NCBI GenBank assembly: GCA_040881665.1
Contig: JBBECT010000004.1
Coordinates: 65,620 to 117,781 of the forward strand
Length of the DNA: 52,162 bases
Origin: Actinomycetota bacterium
GTDB lineage: Bacteria > Actinomycetota > UBA4738 > HRBIN12
Reading direction: 5' to 3'
The translations under genes were made by a program, and so were the position numbers. Each line of letters starts with the position of its first letter. Within the stretch, counting starts at the first letter, position 1. Positions 45,820 to 52,030 of this stretch are shown piece after piece. The notes beneath the pieces were generated by a model. It worked only from the letters and a program-made list of their open reading frames with translations. It had not been told where the DNA came from and searched no databases.

Positions 45820-45907
45820 ATGAACGACGACTGTTGCGTCGAAGATGGTTGCGTGAGGCGCATCCCTCGCGTTGACGCCGCTCGGGCCCTCGCCGACCCT
45901 GGGCGTC

Positions 45908-47125
45908 GTGGATCCGACCGACACCGCTCGCCCCGACCGCTACTGGCGCGCGGCGGAGCCGAAGCCGTCCTACGAGGCGGTGGTCGTGGGCGGCGGCGGC
46001 CACGGGCTCGCCACGGCGTACGAGCTGGCAGCGCGGCACGGCATCACCGATGTCGCCGTGCTCGAGAAGGGCTGGCTCGCCGGCGGGAACATGGCCCGCA
46101 ACACGACGATCATCCGCTCGAACTACCTGTGGGACGAATCCGCCGCGATCTACGAGCACGCGCTGAAGCTGTGGGAAGGACTCGAGGAGGAGCTCGGGAC
46201 CGAGCTCCAGTTCTCCCAGCGCGGCGTGATGAACCTCTCGCACGACGTGGGCGATGTTCGAGCCAGCAAGCGGCGCCTGCACGCGAATCGGCTGAACGGG
46301 ATCGACGCCGAGTGGCTCGAGCCAGACGACATCGTAGAGATCTGCCCGATCGTGAACATCTCCCCCGATCTGCGCTACCCGGTGCTGGGCGCCACGTTCC
46401 AGCGGCGGGGCGGAACGGCGCGCCACGACAAGGTCGCGTGGGGGTATGCGACCGGCGCGGATCGGCTCGGCGTCGACATCGTGGAGCACTGCGAGGTCAC
46501 CGGGTTCGATCTGGACGGCGGCCGGGTCCACGGCGTCGAGACGACCCGCGGCACGATCCACGCGGAGAAGGTCGCACTCGTCGCGGCGGGACATACCTCC
46601 GCGCTCACCGACATGGTCGGGCTGCGGCTCCCGCTGCAGAGCCACCCGCTGCAGGCGCTCGTGTCGGTATTGCTCGAGCCGGTGATCGACACGGTCGTGA
46701 TGTCGAACAAGGTGCACGTCTACGTGAGCCAGGCCGACAAGGGCGAGCTGGTGATGGGTGCGGGCATCGATCCCTACATCGGGTACGGCCAGCGCGGCTC
46801 GTTCCACGTGATCGAACATCAGATGGCGGCCGCGGTGGAGCTGTTCCCGATCTTCGCGCACGCGAAGCTGCTCCGGACCTGGGGCGGCATCGTGGACGTC
46901 TCGCCCGATGCGTCGCCGATCCTCGGTCTGACCCCGATCGACGGACTGTTCCTGAACTGCGGCTGGGGAACGGGTGGCTTCAAGGCGACGCCCGCGTCGG
47001 GCGCGGTGTTCGCGGCCACGATCGCGCGGGATGAGCCCCACCCCCTCGCCCGGCCCTACGCGCTGGAGCGATTCACGACCGGCGCCCTGATCGACGAGCA
47101 CGGCGCGGCGGCGGTGGCCCACTGA
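45908..47125 (+). CDS. soxB: Sarcosine oxidase beta subunit
   Basis: 405 residues from GTG 45908; a TTG at 45872 is also in frame and no clear ribosome site distinguishes them. Carries FAD and the active site for oxidative demethylation of sarcosine. Motifs are [20 protein letters not shown]...[44 protein letters not shown] and the C-terminal [18 protein letters not shown]. The His in TARHD is the residue to which FMN is covalently bound in characterised Corynebacterium enzymes, and it is residue 173 counted from this GTG. It is the first gene of soxBDAG and diverges from iclR. Confidence 0.93.
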
Positions 47126-47138
47126 ACGGCCGGTCGAC

Positions 47139-47399
47139 GTGCTGCTGATCGACTGCCCGTGGTGCGGGCCGCGCGCGGAGGTCGAGTTCCGCTACGGCGG
47201 ACAGGCACACATCGCCTATCCCGAGGATCCGGCCGCGCTGACCGATCAGGAGTGGGCCGACTTCCTGTTCATGCGCGACAACCCGAAGGGGGAATTCCAC
47301 GAGCGATGGTTCCATACCGCAGGGTGCCGCCGGTGGTTCGATGTCGTCCGCGACACCGCGACCTACGTGCTGCGCCCCGACCCGGAGCACGACGCATGA
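47139..47399 (+). CDS. soxD: Sarcosine oxidase delta subunit
   Basis: 86 residues from GTG 47139, 13 nt after soxB. A small zinc-binding subunit of the heterotetramer. The zinc ligands expected for the family are C6 and C9 in CPWCG and H59 and C63 in FHTAGC, all present. AHIAYPEDPAALTDQEWADFLFMRDNPKG is typical. Its stop overlaps the soxA start by 4 nt (ATGA). Confidence 0.93.
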   Translation: MLLIDCPWCGPRAEVEFRYGGQAHIAYPEDPAALTDQEWADFLFMRDNPKGEFHERWFHTAGCRRWFDVVRDTATYVLRPDPEHDA

Positions 47400-50065
47400 G
47401 GCGTCTGGAGAGCGGCGGCCGGATCGACCGATCGAGCCCCGTGCGGTTCTCCTTCGACGGCGTCGTGCTCTCCGGGTTCGCTGGCGACACGCTGGCATCC
47501 GCCCTGCTAGCGAACGGCGTGCACATCGTGTGCCCGAGCCCGATCCTCGGACGTCCGCGCGGCGTGATGACCGCCGGCGTCGAGGAACCAGCCGCGTTCG
47601 TCGAGGTCTCGGCTCCGTCGTTCGACGCGATCGCGCCGGCTCCGACGGTCGAGCTCGTCGACGGACTGATCGCGCGGGGGCTGCCCGGGGTCGGACGACT
47701 CCCGGGACCCGATGCGCAGACCGCTCCGTGTCTGCCGAGGTACGCACACGTGGAAACGCTCGTGATCGGCGGCGGCCGATCGGGTCTGCGAGCCGCGCTC
47801 GAGGCGGTCGCGCGGGGGGATCGCGTGCTGCTCGCCGACGAACGCACGTGGCTCGGTGGCGTCTCGTCCCACGAGGGGGCGCCGCGGGCCGACGCCCCGA
47901 CCGAGCCCGACGGCTTGATCGACGACGTGGCCGATGCACCCGACACGACGCTGCTGACGCGCACGACGGCGCTCGGCATCTACGACGCCGGCTACGTCGT
48001 GCTCTACGAGCGGAGCCGTCCCGTCGAGCGCCTGTGGCACGTACGCGCCGGTCGCGTCGTGCTCGCGTCCGGGGCGCATGAACGCCCGATCGCCTTCGCC
48101 GACGACGACCGGCCCGGCGTGATGCTGGCGGGAGCCGTCCGTCTGTACCTCGAGCGGTTCGCCGTGGTTCCCGGCTCCCGCGCGGTGCTGTTCGCCACGA
48201 ACGACCCCGCGTACGCGACGGCATGGGAGCTGCTCCGTGCGGGTGCGCACGTCGAGGCGATCGTCGACGTCCGTGAGAGCTCTCCCGCACAGGCAGACGC
48301 ACGACGCGAAGGGGTCAAGGTGCTCTCCGGCGCCTCCGTCACCGGCACCGACGGCGATCCGCGGGTGTCGGCGGTTCGGGTGAGGAGCGCCGGCGGCGAG
48401 CCGCGATCGATCGAGGCCGATCTGCTCGCCGTCTCCGGAGGGTGGAACCCGGTCACGCAGCTCGCTCGGACGATCGGGTGTGGGTCCCGCTACGACGAGG
48501 AGCGGGCGTGCTTCGTTCCCGACGGGTCCGGTCCCGACTGGCTCGAGATCGTCGGCCGGGCGGCGGGAGAGGTCCCGGCCTCGGCGGCGTGCTGGTCGGT
48601 CCCGGCCGACGACCGCTCGCGCCACTTCGTCGACTTCCAGCGCGACCAGACCGTCGCCGACATCGAGGCGGCGGTCGGCGGCGGATTGCGTTCGGTCGAG
48701 CACGTGAAGCGCGCCACCTATATCGGGACGGCCGTCGATCAGGGTCGCACGTCGGGGGTGGTGACCGCCGAGGTCGTGAACGGACTCCTCGGCGGCGACC
48801 CCGGTGCGCAGGGACCGTCGAACCCCCGCCCCCCGTACACGCCCGTTCCGTTCTCGGTGCTCGCGGGCCGCCATCAGGGCGATCTGCTCGATCCGATCCG
48901 TCGCACCCCGATCCACCGGTGGCACGAGGAGCACGGTGCCGTCTGGGAGGACGTCGGTCAGTGGAAACGGGCCCGCTACTACCCGGGCGACGGCGAGGAC
49001 ATGAACGCCGCCGTCGCGCGCGAGTGCCTCGCGGTCCGCACGGCAGTCGGGATCCTCGACGCCTCGACGCTGGGCAAGATCGAGGTGGTCGGTCCGGACG
49101 CGGGAGCGTTCCTCGACCGGATGTACACCAACACGATGTCGACGCTGAAGGTCGGAAGGATCCGCTACGGCCTGATGCTCGGCCTCGACGGGATGGTGTT
49201 CGACGACGGCGTCGCGATGCGGCTGGCCGAGGATCGGTTCCTCGTCACGACCACGAGTGGCGGCGCGGCCGCGGTGCTCGACCGGTTCGAGGAGTGGCTC
49301 CAGACCGAGTGGCCCCAGCTGCGCGTGTACTGCACGAGCGTCACCGAGCAGTGGGCCACGATCGGCATCGCCGGCCCGCGCGCCCGCGAGGTCATCGCGG
49401 CGGTGGGCACCGACATCGACCTGTCGGCGGACGCGTTCGGCTTCATGAGGTTCCGCGACGGCGCGGTGGACGGCGTTCCCGCGCGGATCGCCCGCGTGAG
49501 CTTCTCGGGCGAGCTGTCCTACGAGATCAACGTCGACGGTCGCTACGCACAGAGCCTCTGGGAACACGTGATCGAGGCAGGCACTCCCCTCGGGCTCGAG
49601 CCGTACGGCACCGAGGCGATGCATGTGCTGCGCGCCGAGAAGGGTTTCATCATCGTCGGCCAGGACACCGACGGAACGGTGACCCCCGGCGACCTCGGGA
49701 TGGACCGGATCGTGTCCGGCGAGGGCGACTTCGTCGGCAAGCGCTCGCTGTCACGCCCCGACACGGTTCGCAACGACCGCAAGCAGCTCGTCGGTCTGCT
49801 GGCGGTCGATCGTGCGCAGGTGCTCCCCGAAGGAGCGCAGCTCGTCCTCGAAGACACGGGATCGATCCCGATGCCCATGGCCGGCCACGTCACGTCCAGC
49901 TACCGCAGCCCGATCCTCGAGCGAACCTTCGCACTCGCCGTGCTCGAACACGGCCGCGAGCTCCGGGGGGCGTCGGTCTTCGCCCCGCTCCCCGAGGGAA
50001 CGATCGCGGCGACGGTGACCGATCCCGTGTTCTACGACCCGGAAGGAGCCCGCCGTGACGGCTGA
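47396..50065 (+). CDS. soxA: Sarcosine oxidase alpha subunit
   Basis: 889 residues from ATG 47396, coupled to soxD. The N-terminal ferredoxin-like domain (about 15-75; FSFDGVVLSGFAGDTLASALLANG) lacks Cys ligands. An NAD-binding Rossmann domain follows (VETLVIGGGRSGLRAALEAVA, about 117-137). The C-terminal half (about 480-880) is a GcvT-like folate-binding domain (RECLAVRTAVGILDASTLGKIEVVGPDAG, SGELSYEINV, LRAEKGFIIVGQDTDGTVTP), where the methyl-derived formaldehyde is transferred to tetrahydrofolate. Characterised alpha subunits are somewhat longer, near 960-1000 residues, so this one is a compact version. The soxG start overlaps its end by 11 nt. Confidence 0.93.
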   Translation: MRRLESGGRIDRSSPVRFSFDGVVLSGFAGDTLASALLANGVHIVCPSPILGRPRGVMTAGVEEPAAFVEVSAPSFDAIAPAPTVELVDGLIARGLPGVGRLPGPDAQTAPCLPRYAHVETLVIGGGRSGLRAALEAVARGDRVLLADERTWLGGVSSHEGAPRADAPTEPDGLIDDVADAPDTTLLTRTTALGIYDAGYVVLYERSRPVERLWHVRAGRVVLASGAHERPIAFADDDRPGVMLAGAVRLYLERFAVVPGSRAVLFATNDPAYATAWELLRAGAHVEAIVDVRESSPAQADARREGVKVLSGASVTGTDGDPRVSAVRVRSAGGEPRSIEADLLAVSGGWNPVTQLARTIGCGSRYDEERACFVPDGSGPDWLEIVGRAAGEVPASAACWSVPADDRSRHFVDFQRDQTVADIEAAVGGGLRSVEHVKRATYIGTAVDQGRTSGVVTAEVVNGLLGGDPGAQGPSNPRPPYTPVPFSVLAGRHQGDLLDPIRRTPIHRWHEEHGAVWEDVGQWKRARYYPGDGEDMNAAVARECLAVRTAVGILDASTLGKIEVVGPDAGAFLDRMYTNTMSTLKVGRIRYGLMLGLDGMVFDDGVAMRLAEDRFLVTTTSGGAAAVLDRFEEWLQTEWPQLRVYCTSVTEQWATIGIAGPRAREVIAAVGTDIDLSADAFGFMRFRDGAVDGVPARIARVSFSGELSYEINVDGRYAQSLWEHVIEAGTPLGLEPYGTEAMHVLRAEKGFIIVGQDTDGTVTPGDLGMDRIVSGEGDFVGKRSLSRPDTVRNDRKQLVGLLAVDRAQVLPEGAQLVLEDTGSIPMPMAGHVTSSYRSPILERTFALAVLEHGRELRGASVFAPLPEGTIAATVTDPVFYDPEGARRDG

Positions 50066-50603
50066 GCTCCGGGATGCACTCGCTCACCGGTCCCCTGCGC
50101 CCGCCACGGACGGCCTCGAGCTCACCGAGGTGTCCGGGTTGGCGCAGGTGAGCCTCCGCAGCGATCCGCGATCGATCGCCGGCTCCCTCGAGCTCCCGCT
50201 CGAGCCGAACACGTTCCTGGAGCGCGACGGTCGGGTGACACTGTGGCTAGGCCCCGACGAGTGGCTCGTCGTAGCGCCTCACGAACGGTTCCCCTCGCTC
50301 GCCACCGACCTGGATCGGGCACTGGCACCACGCCACCGCTCGGTCGTCGACGTGTCCGCCAACCGCGTGGTGTTGCAGCTCCGCGGCCCGGACGCGCTCG
50401 ACGCGCTCGCGACCGGCTGCCCGATCGACCTGCATCCGCGAGCGTGGACGGCGGGTCAGTGTGCCCAAACACTCGCCATGGACACGCAGGCGATCCTGGT
50501 GCATCTCGGTCACGAGACGAGCTGGGTACTGGTTCGACCTTCCTTCGCCGAACACCTCGTAACCCGATGGGTCGATGGCGCATCATTGCTGATGGCTCGG
50601 TGA
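50055..50603 (+). CDS. soxG: Sarcosine oxidase gamma subunit
   Basis: 182 residues from GTG 50055, which follows a GGAAGGAG Shine-Dalgarno sequence and overlaps soxA by 11 nt. The gamma subunit is GcvT-like but small: LTEVSGLAQVSLRSDP, TLWLGPDEWLVVAP, SVVDVSANRVVLQLRGPDALDALATGCPIDLHPRAW. It closes the soxBDAG operon and completes the heterotetramer that converts sarcosine to glycine, hydrogen peroxide and methylene-tetrahydrofolate. No glyA or purU follows, unlike some other sox operons. Confidence 0.9.
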   Translation: MTAELRDALAHRSPAPATDGLELTEVSGLAQVSLRSDPRSIAGSLELPLEPNTFLERDGRVTLWLGPDEWLVVAPHERFPSLATDLDRALAPRHRSVVDVSANRVVLQLRGPDALDALATGCPIDLHPRAWTAGQCAQTLAMDTQAILVHLGHETSWVLVRPSFAEHLVTRWVDGASLLMAR

Positions 50604-50619
50604 GCTAACTGACACTCCA

Positions 50620-50659
50620 TGTAACTTACCTTGACTGTAACTTACAGGTGGTGTAACTT
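50620..50659 (+). promoter_or_regulatory. Three direct repeats of TGTAACTT at exact 16-bp spacing over a promoter
   Basis: TGTAACTTAC at 50620-50629 and 50636-50645, and TGTAACTT at 50652-50659, start 16 bp apart each time. The core GTAACTTAC is itself a palindrome around a central C. The repeats cover a promoter: -35 TTGACT (50631-50636), 17-nt spacer, -10 TAACTT (50654-50659), with ATG 50666 only 6 nt later, so the transcript is probably leaderless. The tract is AT-richer than its surroundings. It looks like an array of repressor sites. Confidence 0.7.
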
Positions 50660-50665
50660 CGTCTC

Positions 50666-52030
50666 ATGTCATTCGTCAACCGGACAGGGGAACTCGCCGC
50701 CCTCGACCGCTGGTGGTCGACCTCCACGGGGATCGCCCTCGTGTGGGGACGGCGAAGGGTCGGTAAGACGGCCTTGATCCAACGCTTCGCGCGCGGCAAG
50801 CCCACGGTATTCCACACGGGCGCGGGACGCCCGCTTGCCGATGAGCTCAGGATCCTCACAGACGAGGCAACCAAGGTGGCCGATCTCGAACGGCGAAACG
50901 CGCGAATCCGGCCTTTCACCGACTGGGATGACGCCCTTGCCGGGCTCGCCGACGTCCGAAGCCCTTCGCTGCTCATCCTTGACGAGTTCCCGGAGCTCAC
51001 GCGAACGTATCCAGCCCTTCCGTCCGTGTTGCGCGCCTGGCTCGATCGCGAAAGGGGGCGCACAGCCTTGCGCATCCTCGTGTGCGGATCTGCCGTTCGC
51101 ACGATGGAGGCGATGCAGGACGAGCGTTCACCCTTGTTCGGGCGGATCGATCTCCCGCTCCTCGTGCATCCGTTCCGACCACGAGAGGCGTCGACGATGC
51201 TCCGCGTCCTGGATCCCGCGAGTCGTGCGTTGGTGTGGGGCGTCGCCGGCGGGATGCCCCTGTACCTGAGCTGGTGGGATCAGACGGAACCGGTCCGTTC
51301 GAACCTCGATCGCCTGGTCTGTGCCCCTGGGGCCCCCATGCTCACGGAGGGCCAACTCGTGCTCGCTACAGAGGGAGAATCGGGAGAGCTCGGGGGCCTC
51401 GTGCTGCGAGCGATTGCGGCGGGTCGCACGAAACACCACGAGATCGAACAGGCGGTGCGTGCGGAGCCAGCACGAACGCTCGATCGTCTGGCCGAGCTGC
51501 GTCTCGTGGAACGAGTGGTTCCGATCACAGAGAACCCGCGGCGAACCAAACGGACGGTGTACCGGATCGCCGACAACTTCCTCCGATTCTGGCTCACGCT
51601 GGTGGAACGACATCGCGGAGAGATCGAGCGAGGCTTGGGAGGTTCGATCGTCGGATCGATCGAACGGGGCCTCGATGATCACATGGGGGCTGCGTGGGAG
51701 GAGGCGTTCCGGGATCACCTTCGGCACCTCGCGGTCACCGGGCAGATGCCCGAGGAAGTCGAAGCCATCGGACCCTGGTGGGATCGGGACGGAGAGAACG
51801 AGATCGACGCGGTGGCGCTGGCCGGCGTCGATCAAGCGGCGATTCTCGTCGGTGAGGCGAAGTGGGCGCGCGGCGTGAACGGGGCGCGCATCGTGAGTTC
51901 CCTAACGGCGAAGGCGGGACAACTGCCTGCTGTTCGCAAGCATCTCGAGTTGGCGGTGTGTGCTCGAGAAGAGATCAAGAAACCGCCCCCAGGAGCGCGG
52001 ACGTACTCGGCTGTGGACCTCTTCCCCTAG
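50666..52030 (+). CDS. AAA ATPase with PD-(D/E)XK-like C-terminus (archaeal ATPase/DUF234 type)
   Basis: 454 residues from ATG 50666. An N-terminal ATPase has Walker A WGRRRVGKTAL (K34, T35) and Walker B LLILDEFPEL (D106, E107), with a sensor-like ILVCGSAV. A central winged-helix-like region follows (ARTLDRLAELRLVERVVPITE...RTVYRIADNFLRFWL, about 270-310). The C-terminal domain has EID (D381) and GEAKW (E397, K399), the arrangement of a PD-(D/E)XK nuclease fold as in DUF234-type ATPases. Members are often single, horizontally spread genes of unknown function. Codon use is less GC-skewed than in the neighbours (AGG, ACA, CTT occur), which fits acquisition. The phased repeats in its promoter suggest tight repression, possibly by itself. 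Confidence 0.82.
   Translation: MSFVNRTGELAALDRWWSTSTGIALVWGRRRVGKTALIQRFARGKPTVFHTGAGRPLADELRILTDEATKVADLERRNARIRPFTDWDDALAGLADVRSPSLLILDEFPELTRTYPALPSVLRAWLDRERGRTALRILVCGSAVRTMEAMQDERSPLFGRIDLPLLVHPFRPREASTMLRVLDPASRALVWGVAGGMPLYLSWWDQTEPVRSNLDRLVCAPGAPMLTEGQLVLATEGESGELGGLVLRAIAAGRTKHHEIEQAVRAEPARTLDRLAELRLVERVVPITENPRRTKRTVYRIADNFLRFWLTLVERHRGEIERGLGGSIVGSIERGLDDHMGAAWEEAFRDHLRHLAVTGQMPEEVEAIGPWWDRDGENEIDAVALAGVDQAAILVGEAKWARGVNGARIVSSLTAKAGQLPAVRKHLELAVCAREEIKKPPPGARTYSAVDLFP

Follow-up and report, generated by a model that had tools for sequence, protein, structure and literature searches.

Which protein reads the regular array of short repeats that precedes an ATPase gene of an actinomycetotal genome, and to what effect, is the question raised by the locus at 50605-52030 of the window, i.e. 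the whole stretch of 52,162 nucleotides analysed here. The features upstream of the start codon are:

50605-50613, plus strand: degenerate fourth unit CTAACTGAC, 16 bp upstream of unit 1, with 7 of 9 bases as in GTAACTTAC
50621-50629, plus strand: operator unit 1, GTAACTTAC, within TGTAACTTAC at 50620-50629
50631-50636, plus strand: putative -35 element TTGACT, read from the sequence, absent from the consensus-scan calls
50637-50645, plus strand: operator unit 2, GTAACTTAC, within TGTAACTTAC at 50636-50645, in the promoter spacer
50653-50661, plus strand: operator unit 3, GTAACTTCG, degenerate toward its 3' side
50654-50659, plus strand: putative -10 element TAACTT (TANNNT), inside unit 3, absent from the consensus-scan calls

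The two copies of TGTAACTTAC and the copy of TGTAACTT at 50652-50659 are spaced by exactly 16 bp, and the array is followed by 6 bp and the ATG (50666) of the gene for a 454-aa ATPase. The three phased direct repeats of the initial annotation were thus recovered at 50620, 50636 and 50652, and their cores proved palindromic as claimed, except for the centre base of GTAACTTAC (GTAA-C-TTAC). With at most one mismatch, TGTAACTTAC has a chance expectation of 0.06 in the whole window, and none of the shuffles gave three matches. The 16-bp-phased pair occurs only once in the 2.46-Mb genome, at this ATPase_2/DUF234 gene. The fourth unit, also picked up by automatic extraction and aligned at lag 16, lies directly 3' of the stop codon of a sarcosine-oxidase gamma gene; sarcosine-oxidase-like genes (FAD oxidoreductase and SoxG family matches) occupy 45872-50603 directly upstream on the same strand. 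No further GTAACTT-type copies were found within 1.5 kb downstream of the ATPase gene, and a transposon-like or insertion element with terminal repeats was ruled out on this count.

A leaderless promoter had likewise been proposed for this site. The -35-like TTGACT shares one base with the second 10-bp copy and is separated by a spacer of 17 bp from TAACTT, the end of which lies 6 bp from the ATG, so that a leaderless transcript is possible. Judged by these elements a promoter at the array is plausible, but the consensus scan, with agreement at 8 of 12 positions, did not report one.

Conservation of the array had to be sought in its geometry. GTAASTTAC pairs were found by exact-sequence search of 396 genomes in the window and one relative only, and this nearly empty result means that a sequence-based conservation test alone would miss the array of the family. 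Inspected by eye, most homologue upstream regions contain palindromic units that recur every 15 or 16 bp, the sequences of which differ, e.g. GTCGGCGAC/GTCACCGAC/GTCGGCGAC (locus L007), GTAGTACAT/GTAGTACAC/GTAGTATTA (L045) and two copies of TGTTAGTAATA (L029). Phasing was quantified per lag as the best ungapped 10-mer self-match of at least 8/10, in upstream regions taken up to start codons that had been set by alignment. In set 1, 37.5 % of the 56 upstream regions had a match at lag 15 and 30 % at lag 16, with every other lag at 0-11 %, versus 7.7 and 2.6 %, respectively, in random windows from the same loci. In set 2 (51 non-redundant genes, another class), lag 15 was present in 70.6 % (controls, 5.7 %) and lag 30 in 19.6 % (controls, 4.2 %). 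When the pooled set was thinned to at most 60 % protein identity (n = 65 DUF234 ATPases), 75 % had repeats in 15-/16-bp phase no more than about 80 bp from the start codon versus 8 % in shuffles, and neighbouring lag pairs without 15 all remained at or below 17 %. The first copy has a median position of -51 from the start codon, and dyads (inverted 10-mers, at least 9/10) were detected in 61 % of upstream regions versus 11 % of controls. AT-rich upstream DNA does produce more random self-matches (about 8 % of shuffles), as would be expected if the arrays were chance or low-complexity repeats; the sharp 15/16 and 30 spectrum in two separately drawn sets, measured against controls and shuffles, and the missing 15/16 signal of a control family (see below) nevertheless refute this explanation at the family level and leave it a negligible probability.

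Across the DUF234 family, the phase is conserved and the site sequence is lineage-specific. The initial annotation had looked to conservation of the repeats upstream of homologues, which holds for the geometry (15/16-bp phase) but not for the sequence, a divergence it did not foresee. It had named two findings that would speak against a regulated unit, i.e. no conservation among orthologues and widespread copies at unrelated sites; both were looked for and neither was found. Its cooperative operator array, forming a self-contained regulated unit, is strongly supported by the family-wide phase, and binding by a multimer is what we infer from it. Arrays were detected in Actinomycetota, archaea, Bacteroidota, Pseudomonadota, Campylobacterota and Rhodothermota. 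A phased array is present at 15 of the 17 loci drawn from plasmid and phage records (haloarchaea, Rhodothermus, Mesorhizobium, Rhizobium, Bacteroides, Vibrio, Arcobacter, a Streptomyces plasmid and a gut phage-like record), and among relatives on viral contigs it is present in the strongest 7 and absent in 6 weaker ones. A clear array is absent in the family members L056, L099, L123 and L185. Many genes of an actinomycetotal clade (L022-L036) have GTTCGGCTGTGGCAAACTTCGG-like DNA right before the start codon; the array there consists of two units with TTCGG 16 bp apart and is weaker and less palindromic than elsewhere. Paralogues residing in the same genome can possess differing operators (L039, L048 and L049 in genome G156; L029 and L047 in G371), which fits insulated circuits.

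As a control family served the DUF4143 ATPases, one member of which was verified as a PDC-S01 match. Considered as carriers of the 15/16-bp phase, they were rejected: 28 members from the same phylum showed 3.6 % at lag 15 and 0 % at lag 16. Of these two families, DUF234 alone is marked by the 15/16 phase. DUF4143 upstream regions show a direct-repeat excess at 22-23 and 32 bp as well as many long dyads, and this far larger sister family possibly has a second self-operator geometry. The DUF4143 upstream regions concerned are those of L224, L230, L205, L210, L206 and L223, with near-exact 23-bp tandem copies, for instance, in L224 and L230.

The window gene and the region of its product predicted to recognise DNA have the following coordinates:

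50666-52030, plus strand: gene for the 454-aa protein with ATPase_2, winged helix and DUF234 (PD-(D/E)XK-like) domains, PADLOC candidate PDC-S27 (from Pfam, PADLOC and AlphaFold)
51386-51568, plus strand: predicted winged helix, residues 241-301 (AlphaFold model)
51455-51481, plus strand: residues 264-272 (VRAEPARTL), turn and start of the recognition helix, ranking first for operator correlation in set 1 and after pooling

The protein matches PF01637 (ATPase_2, E = 5e-12), PF03008 (DUF234, E = 1.8e-18) and the PADLOC PDC-S27 models (E = 7e-26 and 1e-23), and Walker A (GRRRVGKT) and Walker B (LLILDE) motifs are conserved. The AlphaFold model (mean pLDDT 87, pTM 0.84) consists of ATPase, winged helix (helices 241-251, 257-264 and, for recognition, 269-277; wing strands 281-284 and 298-301) and C-terminal PD-(D/E)XK-like domain. 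In the DUF234 domain GEAKW is located at 396-400, and D381 is invariant across 33 sequences; the lysine is variable in some relatives. At this position, the putative catalytic one of the PD-(D/E)XK-like motif, L007, L022 and L028 carry a different residue (GEAEW, ASARW and ASCHW, respectively), so that some DUF234 proteins may possess an inactive nuclease-like domain. The best fold matches in the PDB are SSO1545 (2fna, E 2.8e-10) and Pab2304 (2qen, E 5.7e-12), followed by Orc1/Cdc6 initiators, one of them solved on origin DNA (2qby).

According to PMC12988326, PDC-S27 joins an ATPase to the PD-(D/E)XK superfamily and was proposed from guilt-by-embedding; 3503 archaeal and 4562 bacterial genes are taken there as defence candidates, and most such candidates await validation. 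The DUF234 ATPase family, as PDC-S27, is accordingly a candidate phage-defence system. In the searched genomes of the taxonomic family, a close relative (59 %) was present in only one other genome and a distant relative (34 %) in one, a patchy distribution consistent with the earlier suggestion that the gene was probably acquired, which may stand at that strength. L008 (G022:C3), a close relative, has an intact two-unit array and lacks approximately codons 1-49, including Walker A, besides having an internal stop; it is a decaying gene copy with its operator retained.

Short palindromes across a promoter are the typical target of TetR- or MerR-like regulators, and a separate host transcription factor of this kind could occupy the array, the ATPase gene being a mere target. 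Against such a factor, the phase accompanies the ATPase in both bacteria and archaea, each time with another site sequence, the window genome contains no second phased pair and so shows no regulon, and the close flanks of 17 annotated plasmid or phage loci contain no conserved adjacent regulator. Half-site and recognition helix, moreover, shift together in the window clade. We consider a host factor quite improbable.

This joint shift was followed in the 15 members of the window clade with readable arrays. At the start of the predicted recognition helix, EP[AS]RT goes with GTAA half-sites (window protein, L003 (mixed), L004, L008 and L194-196), EPSR[LI] with GTTA half-sites (L192, L193 and L197-199) and DPTRT with GTCG half-sites (L006, L007 and L070). 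For L008, AEP[AS] was predicted from its GTAACTTAC array beforehand, and AEPARTL was then found. When the winged helix was excluded from tree building, the GTTA members and the GTCG members each formed a monophyletic group among GTAA relatives, which implies two coincident changes of helix and half-site. These groups are set apart by 15 and 26 positions over the whole protein, of which only two in each case fall in the turn/helix; discriminating positions are thus only mildly concentrated in the helix, and the match in the window clade alone is suggestive. In a blind scan, 9-residue protein windows (approximately 446) were compared with operator similarity while controlling for the remaining protein. 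In set 1 (n = 41), residues 264-272, the recognition-helix start in the AlphaFold model, ranked first (partial r -0.34/-0.35; permutation p 0.003-0.004, values that are too optimistic in that shared ancestry remains in them). The same residues ranked first in the pooled scan (r -0.25); set 2 alone gave no winged-helix peak, its best window being 170-178. Overall, the covariation of helix and operator is supportive, not decisive.

Two traits of a self-binding autoregulator are present at the locus, namely an operator-like array at the gene's own promoter region and a predicted winged helix (241-301) in the gene's own product. With a probability of roughly 0.77, the array is an autoregulatory operator, by which the ATPase binds, as a multimer, and probably represses its own promoter. 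That the phased pair occurs only at the ATPase gene in the window genome and that the array exists in both domains make the ATPase the likeliest ligand; since promoter machinery differs between archaea and bacteria, the ATPase would be the one shared factor. The Orc1/Cdc6 fold relatives, of which 2qby was solved on origin DNA, speak for the same reading. The placement on the promoter suggests repression, which could instead be activation, and units 1.4-1.5 helical turns apart on alternate faces suit a cooperative multimer. Each 9-11-bp palindrome would be occupied by two paired winged-helix domains of the ATPase, and the distance of 15-16 bp would place adjacent protein pairs on alternating DNA faces and allow cooperative binding. 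In the window, where the units extend over the putative -35 element, the spacer and the -10/start region, occupancy would exclude RNA polymerase and the ATPase-nuclease would be kept low. A signal, possibly an invader, may alter the ATP or oligomeric state, upon which its level would no longer be held low.

Alternatively, the array could be a non-promoter assembly site, i.e. origin-like, partition-like or a loading/cutting site of the ATPase-nuclease, with any effect on transcription secondary. The fold relatives Orc1/Cdc6 are AAA+/winged-helix initiators binding DNA repeats, the ATPase is fused to a PD-(D/E)XK-like domain, and ParA-type ATPases, as described in the available part of PMC8465637, assemble on their own promoters too. 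Yet the arrays lie about as far from the start codon as a promoter would (median first copy at -51), that of the window coincides with the putative -35/-10 spacing, and no copy follows the window gene within 1.5 kb. An assembly site is accordingly unlikely, and the autoregulatory operator is preferred.

Considerably more tentative, and rather to be doubted in its entirety, is the extension that DUF234 ATPases are one-chain circuits: a single polypeptide would serve as sensor ATPase, as sequence-specific repressor and as nuclease, and would be kept on its own promoter in the form of a phased multimer. Helix and operator would co-diversify, insulating paralogues even within one genome, and loss of the multimer, e.g. 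to competing invader DNA or a phage factor, would lead to derepression and nuclease activation.

Thousands of DUF234 genes are without known biochemical function, the domain is scarcely named in the open-access library searched, and no description of such arrays was found there. A cis-regulatory signature shared by the family in both prokaryotic domains suggests that the promoter of each DUF234 gene is recognised and controlled by the gene product, and provides a testable handle on the DNA bound, on assembly and on nuclease restraint. The pairing of helix and half-site permits specificity swaps and could yield orthogonal repressor/operator pairs.

Among known systems, the window protein is a member of PDC-S27, for which the available part of PMC12988326 mentions neither a promoter array nor autoregulation. 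IniR and MalT, STAND ATPase transcription factors, resemble the window ATPase as proposed here in being ATPase signal proteins on promoter DNA, and the ATPase domain of IniR resembles SSO1545 (PMC5760070). IniR differs in its MalT-like domain III, its separate C-terminal DNA-binding domain and its described target, iniBAC rather than its own gene. SSO1545 (2fna) and Pab2304 (2qen), the best fold matches, are archaeal Walker-type ATPases about 100 residues shorter than the window protein. By fold match, AAA+ and winged helix are shared with Orc1/Cdc6 (2qby). Orc1/Cdc6 initiators bind repeated DNA, often beside their own gene; the window system differs from them by the added nuclease-like domain, the promoter-overlapping sites and the strict 15/16-bp phase. 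Phased palindromes over the own promoter are also used by restriction-modification controller proteins and by antitoxin repressors, which in this way hold down a harmful effector. In contrast to these, the window protein combines ATPase, DNA-binding and nuclease-like domains in a single chain.
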